Shown here: positions 35,464-46,739 of the stretch, in pieces
Layout: the number at the start of each line of letters is the position of its first letter
How positions within the stretch are numbered: the first letter of the stretch is position 1
NCBI GenBank assembly: GCA_003584005.1
Contig: QXHL01000020.1
Coordinates: 1 to 53,710 of the forward strand
Source: Alicyclobacillaceae bacterium I2511
Lineage (GTDB): Bacteria > Bacillota > Bacilli > Alicyclobacillales > Alicyclobacillaceae
Direction: 5' to 3'
Length of the DNA: 53,710 nt
Made by a program: the position numbers and the translations under genes
The notes under the pieces: generated by a model
Databases searched by the model: none
What the model saw: the letters and a program-made list of their open reading frames with translations, nothing else
What the model was told of the DNA's origin: nothing

Positions 35464-35976
35464 CTATCTGCCGTGTGACAACACAAACGCCAAAAGGATT
35501 CCCATCACCAACCAGGTTCCATGCTGTATCCAGCGCTTGCGGCGAGCATATCCGGGCTGCTTAAGCTCAAAATCAATCACATGTACCCGCTCACCGTCCA
35601 CGTCTATATGTAAGACCCCATGGACGCCAAAGGCAATCACTAAGGGATACCATTGATCTCGCAATTTTACTCCATTAATTCCCTTATCTCGTTCACTGGC
35701 AATTTTCACGACATAAGAATGAGTCCCTTGACGAACAATAAAATCTGCAATCAAAGTTTTTTGAAACTGTCTATCATCGTAGTACCCTGCCCATTCAGCC
35801 CGCTCTCGCACTCGTAAAACTTGATATCCGTTACCATCCAACCACTCTCTGGTTGCCTTGAATTTCCCTTTCAGAGGAACCTGTTGATTTCCCCGCCGAT
35901 GCCAAAACAGTGAACGAAAGAGAATCCATAACAGACCAACGGCTAGAAGTAGGGCACCCCCATCGCGCCAGTCCAT
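35464..35976 (-). CDS. Two-TM protein with internal soluble domain, function unknown
   Basis: 170 residues. A hydrophobic segment near each end (~7-25 and ~148-166) flanks a soluble middle. The centre (TLIADFIVRQGTHSYVVKIA) has the strand-turn-strand look of a PD-(D/E)xK nuclease core, but the acidic residue before Lys is Val, so an active nuclease is doubtful. Both ends probably anchor it in the membrane with the middle on one side. ATG with GGAGGTAA eight bases before it. Located between tlyA and nadK with 12-base spacing to nadK, so part of the operon. I cannot name a family. Confidence 0.7.
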   Translation of the reverse strand: MDWRDGGALLLAVGLLWILFRSLFWHRRGNQQVPLKGKFKATREWLDGNGYQVLRVRERAEWAGYYDDRQFQKTLIADFIVRQGTHSYVVKIASERDKGINGVKLRDQWYPLVIAFGVHGVLHIDVDGERVHVIDFELKQPGYARRKRWIQHGTWLVMGILLAFVLSHGR

Positions 35977-36008: not shown

Positions 36009-36857
36009 TTACATTTCTACTTCGCACCCCTTTAATTCGCGCCAGGCCTCCAGCACCACCTGTCGTACCCTTTCTCGCCACAGTGAAAGAGAACCAGTAA
36101 GGTCACATCCGGTTGCACCAGGCCAGTGCCACCATACAAGAAATTCAATATTTCCATCCCCTCCAGTAATGGGGGAGACAGTAATACCTTTGCACTCCAA
36201 TTCAAGATTGGCAGCAAACTCAATAATGTCAAGCAAAACTTCCATGTGTACCTGCGGATCTCTAACAATTCCACCCTTTCCAACCCGGCCCCTACCAGCC
36301 TCAAATTGCGGTTTAATGAGGGAAATTAAATCTGCGGGTTGTGTCAGCACAGTTTTCAGCCTGTCCAATAACAGCCGAATTGAAATAAAGGAGACGTCCA
36401 TGACTGCAATCTCCGGTGGTGGATTTAATAATTCAGCGGAAATATGACGAAAATTGGTCCGTTCCAACACCATCACTCGGGGATCGGACCGTAATTTCCA
36501 AGCCAACTGACCATAACCCACATCAACCGCATAAACAAAATCAGCCCCAAACTGCAAAGCGCAATCCGTAAAACCACCTGTTGAAGCACCCACATCCAAA
36601 ATCCGTTTTCCGTTCAACGAGACGTCAAATTCCTGTAAGGCTCGCTCCAATTTCAATCCGCCCCGGCTAACATAGCGAGATGGGGACCGAACCAATTCCA
36701 CAGGCACATCAATGACCACTGGAGTCCCTGGTTTATCAAGCAATTGACCATCCACTCGAACCCATCCAGCCATGACAGCCCGTCTCGCCGCCTCACGACT
36801 TGGAAATAGCCCTTGACGAAAGAGTTCTACATCTAACCGAGTGCGCTGGCGCTTCAT
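36009..36857 (-). CDS. tlyA: TlyA-family rRNA 2'-O-methyltransferase / hemolysin-like (YqxC)
   Basis: 282 residues. Residues 1-~65 are an S4 RNA-binding domain (RLDVELFRQGLFPSREAARRAV), followed by an FtsJ-like methyltransferase: SAM motif ILDVGASTGGFTD, AVDVGYGQL, MDVSFISI with Asp, and LIKPQFEAG with Lys. TlyA methylates 16S/23S rRNA in other bacteria. I start at ATG 36857, which overlaps the dxs stop as ATGA with GGAG eight bases before; the frame extends 36 codons further inside dxs without support. Same neighbours as in Bacillus (dxs-yqxC). Confidence 0.95.
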   Translation of the reverse strand: MKRQRTRLDVELFRQGLFPSREAARRAVMAGWVRVDGQLLDKPGTPVVIDVPVELVRSPSRYVSRGGLKLERALQEFDVSLNGKRILDVGASTGGFTDCALQFGADFVYAVDVGYGQLAWKLRSDPRVMVLERTNFRHISAELLNPPPEIAVMDVSFISIRLLLDRLKTVLTQPADLISLIKPQFEAGRGRVGKGGIVRDPQVHMEVLLDIIEFAANLELECKGITVSPITGGDGNIEFLVWWHWPGATGCDLTGSLSLWRERVRQVVLEAWRELKGCEVEM

Positions 36858-38734
36858 GATTGCGCTCCGCGAATCATCCGAGGAGACTCCTCTGGAACCT
36901 TTATCAACAAACGAAGCACAGTGTCTCGAACATTTTCTGCAGTAAGTCCTAATTCTGTTAACCATTCAGTTCGAGATCCATGAGGAATAAATTGATCAGG
37001 CAGGCCCAAACGGGCGACTGGTGTCAATATTCTAGCATCCGCTAATGTTTCCAGCACCGCAGAACCCAATCCTCCAGCTAATGAAGCTTCCTCAATCACC
37101 AGCATTGGCATTCGTTTTGCAACGGCAAGGACAACTTCGCTATCTAGTGGTTTTACAAAACGCATATTGACAATCGTAGCGTCAATTCCAAACTCTTGTA
37201 AGAAAATCGCAGCCTGTTGGGCAATTCGAACCATCGGTCCAAGAGCCAAGATAGCCACCTTTTCTCCTTCTCTCAGTACCTCCGCTTTGCCAATCGGAAT
37301 TTCCTGCAGGGGTTCACTCAAATCCACGCCTTCTCCATCTGCACGTGGGTAGCGAACCACCGTTGGAGCCCCCGTGTGAACCGCGGTATAAAGCATATGA
37401 CGCAACTCATTTTCGTCTTTTGGCATCATTACAATCAAGTTGGGCACAGTCCGTAGGTAACTCACATCAAAAGCCCCTTGATGAGTTTCTCCGTCGGCAC
37501 CCACCAAGCCCGCACGGTCTACCGCAAAGACGACAGGTAGCTTTTGTATAGCCACATCATGAATGACTTGGTCGTAAGCCCTCTGCAAAAATGTCGAGTA
37601 GACTGCAAAAACCGGGTGCATTCCTTGGGATGCCAATCCAGCACAAAAGGTTGTAGCATGTTGTTCTGCAATCCCCACATCAAACATTCTGTCTGGGAAA
37701 ATCTGAGCAAACTTGTTCAGCCCCGTGCCAGCAGGCATGGCGGCAGTAACTGCCACTACTTTTGGATCTCGCCGAGCCAATTGAATGAGGGTGTCTGCAA
37801 ATACACTGGTATACGAAGGACTTGATTTGGCCTTTTTTTCTGTTGGCCAGGCATGAAACTTATCTGGAGCGTCCTCGGCTGAAGAAAAGCCTTTCCCTTT
37901 TTTAGTGACAAGATGAATTAAAACAGGACCGTGCAACTGCTTTGCGTCTTCTAACACCTTCATCAATTCTAGCAAATCATGTCCATCTACGGGACCTAAG
38001 TACTTAAAGCCAAATCCTTGGAACAACAATCCGGGCACCATCAGCAATCGCAAAGAGTCCTTGGCCTTTTCTATGGACTTTGTCAATTTATCTCCAATGG
38101 CTGGAATTTTCCGCAATACATGCTCAATGTCATTTTTGGCTTTAGCATAGGTCGGATCTGTGCGTAAACGTGTTAAGTATTTTGACATTGCACCCACATT
38201 TGGCGCAATAGACATCTCATTGTCATTGAGAATCACCAACAGGTCTGTACCGATGTCTCCAGCATGATTTAAAGCTTCCATTGACATACCACCCGTCAAT
38301 GCGCCATCCCCAATGACAGCGACCACATCGTAGTGATCCCCTTGCAGGTCCCTGGCAACTGCCATTCCAAGCGCTGCAGAAATAGAAGTACTTGCATGCC
38401 CGACACCAAAGGCATCGTAAATACTTTCGGATGGTTTGGGAAACCCAGATAAACCATGATACTTTCTTAAAGTTGTAAATTGCTCTCGTCGTCCAGTAAG
38501 AATTTTGTGTACATAGGCCTGATGCCCTACATCCCAAACAATTTTATCTATGGGACTATGAAACACCTTATGCAAAGCCAAAGTCAGTTCCACTACACCC
38601 AAGTTTGCCCCAAAGTGCCCGCCAGTCTGTGAAACAGAGTCCACCAGAAAGGTGCGAATTTCATGAGCTAATTGAATCAATTCCCGGTCATCCAAGTGTT
38701 TTAAGTCTGAAGGCTGTTTTATCTGTTCTAACAA
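36854..38734 (-). CDS. dxs: 1-deoxy-D-xylulose-5-phosphate synthase
   Basis: 626 residues. Condenses pyruvate with glyceraldehyde 3-phosphate, first step of the MEP isoprenoid pathway. Thiamine motif GDGALTGGM...ILNDN (~150-182), TSISAALGMA, catalytic pyrimidine-domain segments DVGIAEQHATTFCAGLA and DRAGLVGADGETHQGAFD. TTG start with GGGGGTGAAG seven bases upstream. It is placed after oapA and supplies the pathway whose product IspA elongates, two genes upstream. Confidence 0.98.
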   Translation of the reverse strand: MLEQIKQPSDLKHLDDRELIQLAHEIRTFLVDSVSQTGGHFGANLGVVELTLALHKVFHSPIDKIVWDVGHQAYVHKILTGRREQFTTLRKYHGLSGFPKPSESIYDAFGVGHASTSISAALGMAVARDLQGDHYDVVAVIGDGALTGGMSMEALNHAGDIGTDLLVILNDNEMSIAPNVGAMSKYLTRLRTDPTYAKAKNDIEHVLRKIPAIGDKLTKSIEKAKDSLRLLMVPGLLFQGFGFKYLGPVDGHDLLELMKVLEDAKQLHGPVLIHLVTKKGKGFSSAEDAPDKFHAWPTEKKAKSSPSYTSVFADTLIQLARRDPKVVAVTAAMPAGTGLNKFAQIFPDRMFDVGIAEQHATTFCAGLASQGMHPVFAVYSTFLQRAYDQVIHDVAIQKLPVVFAVDRAGLVGADGETHQGAFDVSYLRTVPNLIVMMPKDENELRHMLYTAVHTGAPTVVRYPRADGEGVDLSEPLQEIPIGKAEVLREGEKVAILALGPMVRIAQQAAIFLQEFGIDATIVNMRFVKPLDSEVVLAVAKRMPMLVIEEASLAGGLGSAVLETLADARILTPVARLGLPDQFIPHGSRTEWLTELGLTAENVRDTVLRLLIKVPEESPRMIRGAQS

Positions 38735-38772: not shown

Positions 38773-39387
38773 CTATTTATTGACAGACCCTTTTTTAGGA
38801 GGGTTTGTTTTTCGACCACGGATATAATTTAAAGAACGCTCTGTTTGTAAAAACGACTCTAACACACGAGCGGTGAATAATACGATCGGAGTGGGCGACT
38901 GAATCGCCATGGTTTTTCCAATCGCCTTAAACCCAACGGTCAAAGCAGTGATGAACGCAGTAATTATAATAACTGTAAGTTCTCCGAACCAGCCGTGGGT
39001 TTGTAAAGAACGCTGCAATTGTACCGCTACTGCAAGAGCACCGGCACCACTGAGTACCCCAGCGATGTCCCCCACCACGTCACTGGCAATACTGGAGACT
39101 TTCTCTGCATTACGAACGATATAAATAGCCCGTTTCGCTCCGAATATCCGCTTTGAAGCCATGGCGTGAAAAGGAGTTTCCTGAGCAGCTGCAGAGGCAA
39201 CGCCAACCATGTCAAAGAAAGCACCAATGAGAACAATAAACAAAACAACTACCGCACCTAAATACCAAGGTATCCGATCTAAAAAAATAGTGGCTGTGTC
39301 AAACACACCACTAATGGGAAAAGACAGCGCAGCCACTGTGACGACAAAAGGCCAAGCACTGCGCAGTGACGTTTTTTTCATGCCCAT
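38773..39387 (-). CDS. oapA: OLE-associated protein OapA (DUF21/CNNM-like membrane protein)
   Basis: 204 residues with about four membrane helices (roughly 12-30, 42-62, 100-125, 132-155). The core GAFFDMVGVASAAAQETPFH and ASDVVGDIAGVLSG is the DUF21 pattern of CorB/CNNM-type proteins, without CBS domains. In Bacillus halodurans the protein directly downstream of OLE RNA, OapA, binds the RNA and carries it to the membrane; position, size and motif agree here. The DIAG motif (Asp107, Gly110) probably corresponds to the Asp/Gly pair whose change gives a dominant defect there (from memory). Start ATG 39387 follows AAGGAG by six bases; upstream frame is RNA leader. Basic C-terminal tail (~175-204, rich in Lys/Arg) could contact RNA. 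Confidence 0.92.
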   Translation of the reverse strand: MGMKKTSLRSAWPFVVTVAALSFPISGVFDTATIFLDRIPWYLGAVVVLFIVLIGAFFDMVGVASAAAQETPFHAMASKRIFGAKRAIYIVRNAEKVSSIASDVVGDIAGVLSGAGALAVAVQLQRSLQTHGWFGELTVIIITAFITALTVGFKAIGKTMAIQSPTPIVLFTARVLESFLQTERSLNYIRGRKTNPPKKGSVNK

Positions 39388-39444
39388 ACATTTCTCCTTC
39401 ATCCAGGCAAAGCGGATTGTCCACGGTGCACAAGACGAATTAAA

Positions 39445-40060
39445 CACAAATCTTTTAAAGACTAGTTCAGTCCACAAGGGTGGCAGCCCCCCGAGTAAAC
39501 TCTGTGGCTTAGGTCCAGTAGGTTTTCCCATGCAAGCACCCACGCGTTGCCGCCCAGGCGGTTTCCCTTTCAGCCCCCATTGACAGTGTCGCCATCTGTC
39601 AGACTGGATTACCACTCAGTCCACACTATAATCCTCGAGGAGCCACGCCAGAGCGAACAGTCTAGGCGTTTTCCGCAACAATCGGCACCGATTCCTAGCC
39701 TCTTTTGCAGTACGGATTTCATGCGACGAACCTTCGACCCCTGGCCAGGGTGACGTCGGTTGAATACCGCAATCCTTCAGCACCACTCAAGGCAGGCTAC
39801 ACTGCACACAGATGTTTTCCGCATGCAGGTTCCTCCCCCAAGCCGAAGTTTAAGCAACAAACCACGAACTTGGGCCTCCGCGAAAGCTGGGTCACCATCC
39901 GCATGCCATTGTGGAATGCCCAACTTTCTTAACTCCCAGCACCAGCCCAAAGCTGGGCGCTTCAAGCCAGCACCAGGAACTTCATCGATGTGCCCTTGAC
40001 GGATTTTTAGCCCCGCCTTCAGAACCGGTCGATTGACTAGAATACTGCGCCACCCGGATT
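39445..40060 (-). ncRNA. ole: OLE RNA (ornate, large, extremophilic)
   Basis: A 701-base gene-free gap lies between ispA and oapA, exactly where OLE RNA occurs in extremophile Firmicutes, and ~610 bases is its usual length. The sequence is rich in strong local hairpins: CCGCCTGGGCGG (39549-39560), ATCGG-TG-CCGAT (39681-39692), CCCTGGCCAGGG (39739-39750), the Gly-rich stem around 39938-39960, and a closing stem CCACA/TGTGG at 39472-39507 with an inner GAG-TTTA-CTC. A promoter sits just before the 5' end. No open frame here has ribosome site or codon bias. Ends are estimates. Family knowledge: OLE forms a membrane ribonucleoprotein with OapA and is tied to ethanol, cold and magnesium stress. 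I could not run a covariance search. Confidence 0.88.
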
Positions 40061-40066
40061 AATGCC

Positions 40067-40075
40067 ATTATACCA
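40067..40075 (-). promoter_or_regulatory. Extended -10 promoter for OLE RNA
   Basis: TGGTATAAT on the minus strand, just after the ispA stop. No good -35 at 16-18 bases, but TGn-TATAAT often suffices. Predicted start about 40060, so OLE RNA can be made apart from the long operon transcript. Confidence 0.7.
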
Positions 40076-40088
40076 TAACAGCAAGGTT

Positions 40089-40988
40089 TTAGTGGATGCG
40101 CCGTACAGACATCTTTGCCAATCCAACTAAAAGTGATGTGTGTAACCCAACCCCAGTCAGTGAGGTCAATGCTTGTGCCAGTTCATCATCCGCCATTTTA
40201 CGAGTCTCAGCCACACCAACTGCGGCTGGATAAGTCATCTTGTGCTGGCGTTCATCTGCTCCGGCAGACTTACCCAGTTCTTGTGTCGTGGCGGTAACAT
40301 CCAATAAATCATCGACAATTTGAAAAGCTAATCCTAAATGTCGTCCATAAGATGCCAAAAGTGTCCTCTGTTCCGAAGTAGCTCCACCCACAATGGCTCC
40401 CATCACTACAGCAGCCTCAATTAATGCAGCCGTTTTGTGGGTGTGGATAAAACGCAGCATGGAAATGTCTGGACGTTGCGTTTCAGCTGCCAAATCCGCC
40501 TGTTGTCCCCCCACCATACCGTAAGGGCCAGCTGCGACCGCAAGACACAAAACTAATTCCAACTGCTGTTCAGGGTGTAAAAAGGAACGAGGCTGGGAGA
40601 GTAAAGTAAATGCGTGCGTCAGCAAGCCATCCCCTGCCAAAAGAGCGGTTGCTTCTCCAAATACATTATGGTTCGTAGGTTGCCCACGGCGCAAATCATC
40701 ATTATCCATTGCAGGCAGGTCATCATGGATGAGTGAGTAGGCATGAACCAGTTCTAGGGCAGCAGCAACCGATATTACATCATCCTCAGCGACTCCGAGC
40801 GTTTGCGCAACAGCCAAACACAGAGCGGGTCGCAAGCGCTTCCCAGGGGCCAGCAAACTGTAACGCATTGCATCAAACAATTTTTGTGGTTCACTATTTT
40901 GTGCGAACACGGTGGCCAAGTAAATGTTTAGTTTCTGAACACTTGTCTCCAAAAAATCATTTACGTCAACCTGTGAAAATTCTGTCAT
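40089..40988 (-). CDS. ispA: Farnesyl diphosphate synthase
   Basis: 299 residues, all-helical prenyltransferase. First aspartate motif LIHDDLPAMDNDDLRRG, second DDLLD in QIVDDLLDVT, plus GKRLRPAL for isopentenyl-PP and GGQQADL. Residues before the first motif (VHAYSLIH, with Tyr at the fifth position upstream) fit short-chain C15 product. ATG overlaps the xseB stop (ATGA). Directly followed by OLE RNA. Its partner dxs lies beyond oapA. Confidence 0.96.
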   Translation of the reverse strand: MTEFSQVDVNDFLETSVQKLNIYLATVFAQNSEPQKLFDAMRYSLLAPGKRLRPALCLAVAQTLGVAEDDVISVAAALELVHAYSLIHDDLPAMDNDDLRRGQPTNHNVFGEATALLAGDGLLTHAFTLLSQPRSFLHPEQQLELVLCLAVAAGPYGMVGGQQADLAAETQRPDISMLRFIHTHKTAALIEAAVVMGAIVGGATSEQRTLLASYGRHLGLAFQIVDDLLDVTATTQELGKSAGADERQHKMTYPAAVGVAETRKMADDELAQALTSLTGVGLHTSLLVGLAKMSVRRIH

Positions 40989-45592: not shown

Positions 45593-46141
45593 TCATTCCA
45601 CCCACGTTTTGGCGGATTTATTACCGGTTTGAGCCAACTCCGTGATGTTAACAGTAATACGTTCCACATTGATACCACAAGTTTTTTCCACATAAGACTT
45701 GACTTTTTGCTGGATTTGTCCACTAAGTTCAGCCAAATCAATGTCGGGTAATACCCGTACACGCACAGCAAGCAAAATTCCCGCTTGTCCTGATCGTACT
45801 CGAGTATCAAAATCTTGTACACCACGGATTAGTTTTCCGGTCCGATTCGCCAAATCACGCACAGTATCATAAGAAATGCGAATGTTCCCGTTCTCTCCAG
45901 ATAAAGTTACATAATCTGAATCAACTTGCCCAATGCGATAAAAAATAAATCGAAGTGCAATCACAGCAAAAATTAAAGTCAAAACAATGACATATACGTT
46001 CACCGGATAAAAGCTCAATTCGTTTGCAACGGTTGCAATCCAACCAGGCGCTACTCCTAGCCCCACAATAAATCCAAAAATAGACACGGCCAAAGTTCCA
46101 AGTGCCAGGATTAGTAGCAATACGCGGTCTAAAATACTCAC
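45593..46141 (-). CDS. amaP: Alkaline shock response membrane anchor AmaP
   Basis: 182 residues. Two membrane helices (~6-30 and ~50-72) followed by a cytoplasmic domain resembling Asp23 (GQAGILLAVRVRVLPDIDLAELSGQIQQKV in pieces). AmaP recruits Asp23 to the membrane in Staphylococcus. GTG start preceded by GGGAGGG. It lies between asp23 and DUF2273. Confidence 0.9.
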   Translation of the reverse strand: MSILDRVLLLILALGTLAVSIFGFIVGLGVAPGWIATVANELSFYPVNVYVIVLTLIFAVIALRFIFYRIGQVDSDYVTLSGENGNIRISYDTVRDLANRTGKLIRGVQDFDTRVRSGQAGILLAVRVRVLPDIDLAELSGQIQQKVKSYVEKTCGINVERITVNITELAQTGNKSAKTWVE

Positions 46142-46220
46142 AAAATCCCTCCCGGGAACCACTGTAGCTATAGCAACAGACCACGACCCGTAATCTTAGC
46201 AGCCGCTGCAAAAGGTTTAC

Positions 46221-46664
46221 TCAGTGATTCTTACGTTCAACAGTAATTACATCCACGTTGTCTTTGCCATCTTTAGCTTTATCTGATTGAAAAGCAACTG
46301 CGGACACGTGCACATTCACTGCAATCACTTCCAAGCCCGTCATACCTTCTACAGTTTGCTTCACATGTTCCTGAATTTGCACGCACGTTTGCGGAATGTT
46401 TACTCCAAAATCTAACACAATCGCCAAATCAATGGTGCAACTTTTACCTTCGTCCCCAAAAGTAACCTTGACACCCTTGGACAGATTTTTACGACCCAGT
46501 AAAGATTCCGTGATACCTCCGGCGAAAGAGCCGCTCATATCAGTGACGCCCGTAATCTCCCCTGCGGCCAATCCAGCAATAATTTGAATCACTTCGTCCG
46601 CAATTTGAATTTTTCCTAAATCAGTGGTAGGGTAATCCGCTGTGTGGTACTCAAAGTCATTCAT
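46221..46664 (-). CDS. Asp23/Gls24 family envelope stress protein
   Basis: 147 residues. Core motif LGKIQIADEVIQIIAGLAAGEITGV, then GGITESLLGRKNLSKGVKV and a C-terminal VNVHVSAVAF, typical of Asp23 (YqhY in Bacillus). Forms a layer under the membrane when held by AmaP. In Bacillus, YqhY sits downstream of accBC and is linked to acetyl-CoA carboxylase activity; the same order here supports an equivalent role. ATG with GGGGAGTG upstream. Confidence 0.93.
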   Translation of the reverse strand: MNDFEYHTADYPTTDLGKIQIADEVIQIIAGLAAGEITGVTDMSGSFAGGITESLLGRKNLSKGVKVTFGDEGKSCTIDLAIVLDFGVNIPQTCVQIQEHVKQTVEGMTGLEVIAVNVHVSAVAFQSDKAKDGKDNVDVITVERKNH

Positions 46665-46739
46665 TAAGACACTCCCCTTTATTTGACATCGTTTAAAATA
46701 CACGAAAGTCCTTCTCTAGTCCATTATTCGAAACTGATG

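Follow-up and report, generated by a model that had tools for sequence, protein, structure and literature searches.

What does the gene-free gap between ispA and a small membrane protein gene encode in Alicyclobacillaceae bacterium I2511, and on which side of the membrane would its product work? We analyzed a stretch of 53,710 nucleotides of this genome (contig QXHL01000020.1), the whole of which is called the window here. The first-pass annotation had described a gene-free region of about 700 bases between ispA and a DUF21-type membrane protein gene and had assigned it to OLE RNA, a conserved bacterial RNA of exceptional size whose biochemical action is still unsolved. The gap, from the end of ispA at 40089 to the start of oapA at 39387, measures 701 bases, and a search of the minus strand with the Rfam covariance model RF01071 gave a full-length match at 39464..40069 (minus strand; model 1-616, the complete model of 616 positions) at 509.6 bits (gathering score 50; E 1.3e-146), confirming the assignment. 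This was the sole gathering-level Rfam match in the window, the covariance-model search detected one OLE only in the 3.48-Mb genome, and none of the 14 control genomes matched. The P7 and P8 regions are aligned, hence the RNA is neither variant 1 nor variant 2, in which P7-P8 is described as short or missing (PMC11332333). The ispA-oapA gap encodes a complete OLE RNA, an ordinary full-length member of a known system. Two other readings of the gap, decay into a relic and a spacer structured by chance, have a negligible probability and were dismissed, given the full-length match to the model, the conserved promoter element, the compensatory changes and pairing in the P3 and P3.1 stems, the intact oapA, and the deviation of the window OLE at just 3 of 222 near-invariant columns.

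The genes around the RNA all lie on the minus strand in the order xseA-xseB-ispA-ole-oapA-dxs, followed by an FtsJ/S4 methyltransferase gene, a gene for a 170-residue protein, nadK and recN; the names xseA and recN were given by likeness, with no family search behind them. The upstream neighbor ispA (40089..40988, minus strand) matches the Pfam polyprenyl synthetase family, and the downstream neighbor dxs (36854..38734, minus strand) matches Pfam DXP synthase. The GC fraction of the OLE gene is 0.553 versus 0.469 for the window. The 170-residue protein, encoded at 35464-35976 on the minus strand between the methyltransferase gene and nadK, has no Pfam match. Elsewhere in the window (45593-46703, minus strand), an AmaP-type anchor above the NCBIfam cut-off is encoded beside an Asp23-family protein, and the pair is flanked by nusB and accC; the Asp23-type gene yqhY has been described as a frequent neighbor of OLE (PMC12265935).

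The annotation had also credited the RNA with an extended -10 promoter of its own, and we found such a box, TGGTATAAT, at 40075-40067 on the minus strand, marking the putative ole promoter by its position and by its recurrence in 35 of the 39 usable loci of the window's family. The pattern TGnTAnnnT occurs within a 65-base segment at the OLE 5' end in these 35 loci and in 37 of 41 loci from other bacteria, whereas four upstream-shifted segments contain it in 0, 2, 0 and 0 of 39 family loci and in 6, 0, 3 and 7 of 41 others. TATAAT behaves similarly, with 32/39 and 33/41 at the 5' end versus 0, 1, 0 and 0 (family) and 7, 2, 0 and 0 (others) in the shifted segments; 3 of the 83 loci offered no usable segment and were excluded from these counts. 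A generic sigma-70 scan did not predict the TGGTATAAT site, because that scan requires a -35 hexamer, and no terminator-like site was listed in the scan between OLE and oapA. Since the Rfam 5' edge of OLE overlaps the -10 box, the true 5' end of the RNA probably lies near 40060.

Is the RNA also intact in its architecture? We aligned 83 OLE sequences, comprising all 53 matches from a 101-genome search and the best 30 of the 217 matching genomes in a phylum sample; 40 come from the window's family and 43 from other bacteria, and because 30 of these 43 were picked by score, the latter set leans to high-scoring RNAs. Two stems that are both unpaired in the Rfam model, P3 and P3.1 (5' strands, 40022..40035; 3' strands, 39679..39694; minus strand), form 6 and 7 pairs in the window OLE, and their positions are paired in 96.1% and 95.2% of cases across the 83 sequences, compared with means of 68.5% and 64.6% and maxima of 72.6% and 67.9% in 500 shuffles, a null that does not preserve sequence relatedness. 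Two contacts of the cryo-EM dimer of Clostridium acetobutylicum OLE (PMC12286853) are present at the sequence level, as they are in that RNA: the A-run of loop L4 (40004..40008, minus strand), an intermolecular contact whose sequence CUAAAAAUC is found in 83/83 OLE sequences, and the self-complementary GGCC of the P9 loop (39743..39746, minus strand), a kissing-loop contact. The dimer of the C. acetobutylicum RNA was seen by cryo-EM, whereas the window OLE is known from its sequence.

One feature of the Halalkalibacterium halodurans RNA is missing. The anti-Shine-Dalgarno mimic in P6, CCUCCU in that species, is absent from the window OLE; the shorter CCUCC is likewise absent from 40/40 family RNAs and from 34 of the 43 others, being present in 9/43, and the full CCUCCU occurs in 0/40 and 4/43. 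With CCUCC in so few of the others, the mimic is not a family-defining trait of OLE RNA. These counts bear on the reading in which OLE is chiefly a ribozyme, or sequesters bS21 and other ribosomal proteins like a sponge, with OapA merely tethering it. A ribozyme role has been proposed (PMC11332333), bS21 is encoded in the window's genome, and binding of bS21, to which the CCUCC mimic of P6 has been linked, was reported in H. halodurans (PMC12054373). According to the same report, bS21 binding was undiminished when the mimic was altered with the conserved G-C pairs kept and was reduced when these pairs were inverted. The GGGC/GACCC core is retained in the window OLE, and thus, as far as that report goes, the mimic looks incidental in the window's family. 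The widespread lack of the mimic speaks against the ribozyme or sponge reading, which we consider quite unlikely, also in view of the gene distribution described below.

The partner gene oapA, encoding 204 residues, occupies 38773..39387 on the minus strand and was recognized by motif, alignment and predicted fold; its start is most likely the ATG at 39387, which has AAGGAG six bases upstream, 39381 being a possible alternative. The DxxxD motif reads DVVGD here, and 75/75 sequences keep the D, G and D of D..GD. With 24.8-25.1 bits, the protein stays below the Pfam CNNM cut-off of 28.4 and has no other Pfam domain, which agrees with its description as the next-closest CNNM cluster (PMC11332333). 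The AlphaFold model (pLDDT 90.0, pTM 0.77) superimposes on archaeal CorB (7m1t) with Z 14.0 and 2.2 A over 130 residues, followed by bacterial CorC with Z 11.6 and a first unrelated structure with Z 8.8; since Z below about 13 can be a matter of chance for helical models, the top value is only just clear. Foldseek against the PDB returned nothing at E <=0.001 for this model (top match CorB, E 1.6e-3), NCBIfam matched neither OapA nor OapB to a family at E <=0.001, and the OapA profile gave just three weak matches to PDB sequences (best E 0.024), all to one unrelated viral glycoprotein, which were set aside. The downstream gene had been annotated as OapA; the motif and the predicted CNNM fold sustain that identification, while the Pfam CNNM score falls short. 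The predicted fold consists of the CNNM membrane fold with one extra N-terminal helix and nothing more. OapA would thus resemble the MpfA/CorB/CorC magnesium exporters in its membrane domain and differ from them by the extra helix, by the DxxxD motif and by having neither a CBS nor a CorC domain, so that, judged from sequence and model, it appears to be the membrane half of a CNNM/MpfA-type exporter without the cytoplasmic domains. It adjoins OLE on the downstream side in 80 of 83 loci. In three class relatives, G077 (L007/L105), G069 (L099) and G090 (L101), OapA is absent from the examined OLE flank, and an OapA-like gene with 32-36% identity lies elsewhere in each genome, in G077 on the same contig at about 0.9 Mb from OLE.

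OapB and OapC had been predicted to be encoded elsewhere in the genome, and both were found. OapB matches PDB 7k9b, the OLE-associated protein B, over residues 8-93 (E 6.5e-17); its gene sits among ribosomal-protein genes with adk on one side and infA on the other, and it came to light by reading this cluster, as the Pfam KOW matches listed for the genome did not include it. OapC/YbxF, encoded directly before rpsL, matches PDB 3v7e (E 2.9e-22) and 4lck (E 3.4e-22) and reaches 102.9 bits with NCBIfam NF010125, under the cut-off of 113. For loci L055, L056, L105 and L107, the names xseA, xseB, adk, infA and rpsL are based on likeness, with no family search. A further partner, argR, is known from unpublished data cited in PMC12265935; it lies on a different contig from ole in the window's genome (G000:C157:13941-14141) and within 6 kb of ispA in 8 of 12 genomes of the sister family (e.g., G047:C29 and G046:C12). 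The system therefore resembles that of H. halodurans, whose traits we take partly from PMC11332333, in having a full-length RNA followed directly by oapA, genes for OapB and OapC at other sites, and an own promoter, putative here. H. halodurans is an alkaliphile, unlike the host family here, which is Alicyclobacillus-like as judged by its named relatives.

These relatives were identified through OapA and include Alicyclobacillus ferrooxydans, A. mengziensis, A. macrosporangiidus, A. pomorum and A. contaminans, together with an unclassified Bacillota MAG of 89% identity (11 loci). Alicyclobacillus species are acidophiles. In our literature search, which left most subscription journals outside, nothing was found on OLE RNA in Alicyclobacillus, and only a soda-lake study turned up for OLE RNA and acidophiles; the survey of 2,822 OLE matches in PMC11332333 very likely includes the window's family. 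OLE was present in 217/299 genomes of the phylum sample and in 53 of the 101 genomes searched, among them 40 of the 41 members of the window's family. The one OLE-negative member, G021, is 99% complete and carries OLE pieces at two contig ends (L103 2917-3005, model 528-616, 51.2 bits; L104 3312-3372, model 1-62, where 27.2 bits fall short of the gathering score). One contig end lies 104 bases from oapA and a different one 255 bases from ispA, and a loss of OLE in this genome was dismissed. A contig break inside OLE can thus make a near-complete genome look OLE-negative, and presence-absence surveys should check contig ends.

The sister family gives a different picture, with OLE and OapA each in 0/18 genomes and OapB in 0/18 versus 34/37 in the window's family, where the three OapB-negative genomes are 82%, 91% and 62% complete. 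L7Ae-type proteins, a class that includes OapC but also YlxQ, occur in 17/18 sister-family genomes, and therefore a loss of OapC cannot be claimed. Among the matches listed, CNNM proteins over the Pfam cut-off (MpfA-type) are found in 16/18 genomes of the sister family (the two negatives, G055 and G056, being assigned by elimination) and in 5/41 of the window's family. Within the same listed matches, the window's genome has no MpfA-type CNNM over the cut-off, OapA being the sole match with 25.1 versus 28.4 bits. The five family genomes, two of them at 9-10% contamination, combine OLE with an MpfA-type protein among the matches listed, and strict mutual exclusion therefore does not apply. The sister-family locus whose ORFs were listed (L107) has xseA, xseB, ispA and dxs in series with a gap of about 415 bases, and in 4 of the 18 genomes, a search beside ispA with E as high as 1 detected no OLE remnant. 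The more distant class relative G077 has OLE at the corresponding ispA-dxs position, and for this reason the sequences are more simply read as a loss in the sister family. An anticorrelation of OLE and MpfA has already been published (PMC11332333), and the contrast between the two families is a sharp example of it. This exchange among the matches listed points to transport or metal balance, and thereby away from OLE being mainly a ribozyme or a protein sponge.

Where, then, does the RNA sit? Lyon and Breaker (2025) regard OLE as an integral membrane RNA whose P3 crosses the bilayer, with domain 1 in the cytoplasm, domain 2 and OapB outside, and OapA proteins facing both ways (PMC12265935). The model draws on arguments from the cryo-EM shape, which favor a membrane-spanning RNA over a wholly cytoplasmic one (PMC12265935), and our data agree with it in that P3 and P3.1, which covary strongly, together amount to 13 pairs here, about the length asked for in that paper. 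In an acidophile, the membrane-spanning model would make domain 2 face acid. The word "acidic" does not occur in the main text of PMC12265935 as available, and no literature was found on OLE RNA with "dual topology" or "positive-inside", most subscription journals being outside the search. We took the columns conserved in at least 95% of the 43 other sequences and counted changes per sequence in the 40 of the family. For the 129 such columns of domain 1 the family changed at 1.2% and for the 93 of domain 2 at 1.0%, versus 1.45% and 1.36% in a leave-one-out count among the others, and the ratio of domain 2 to domain 1 distances was 0.898 for family-other pairs and 0.941 for other-other pairs. 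Thus, no acid-linked change in domain 2 was seen between 40 family and 43 other sequences, a comparison of low power in which the family sequences are not independent.

The proteins bear on the same question. OapA lysines and arginines are biased to the N-terminus, loop 2 and tail (mean 16.9, minimum 10), one-sidedly in 75/75 sequences, whereas the model needs OapA to face both ways. Membrane segments were placed by a simple hydropathy scan; the 75 come from 80 located genes after omission of L129 (not delimitable) and L088, L031, L086 and L115 (internal stop after trimming), and alignment A1 covers 44 of the 79 delimited ORFs. With the termini omitted, the bias of the loops alone is smaller (mean 4.7, minimum 0), which counts against a cytoplasmic placement. 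The CNNM fold supports loop 2 and the tail being cytoplasmic, if the orientation is shared. OapB is encoded among ribosomal-protein genes and has no signal-like hydrophobic segment (maximum 15-residue hydropathy 0.85), but it could bind OLE before any translocation. The domain 2, OapA-charge and OapB results argue against the membrane-spanning model without refuting it, and we consider it unlikely. The charge bias of OapA in 75/75 sequences points to the opposite placement, and OLE RNA is most likely to lie wholly on the cytoplasmic side.

As a whole explanation, we favor, with somewhat better than even confidence, a cytoplasmic OLE complex that stands in for the missing CBS and CorC domains and gates OapA. 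Two copies of the RNA would pair via the L4 A-run and the GGCC loop. The kink-turn would be bound by OapC and the P12-P13 arm by OapB, and the basic loop and tail of OapA would anchor the complex to the inner membrane face. The complex would most likely replace the CBS and CorC control domains of an MpfA-type exporter and may gate the passage of ions through OapA during magnesium, cold, alcohol or energy stress. It has been speculated in print that OLE-type complexes could take over the role of the absent MpfA domains (PMC12265935). The gating reading is supported here by the sister family, in which OLE, OapA and OapB are missing and most genomes have an MpfA-type CNNM among the matches listed, and by the adjacency of OLE and oapA described above, the three exceptional genomes keeping OapA elsewhere.

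With the same gene neighborhood lacking OLE, OapA and OapB and mostly an MpfA-type protein in its genomes, the sister family makes open questions about OLE testable. The window's family, in turn, is a good place to settle the location of the RNA, because an outside domain would face acid. It is very improbable, in our judgment, that about 220 bases of OLE (domain 2) and OapB lie outside the membrane in this Alicyclobacillus-like family and work in acid with no visible sequence adaptation; if true, a structured RNA would be displayed to an acidic exterior. If domain 2 were found inside in the same hosts, the integral-membrane-RNA model would be overturned, and an acidophile can thus decide the question either way.
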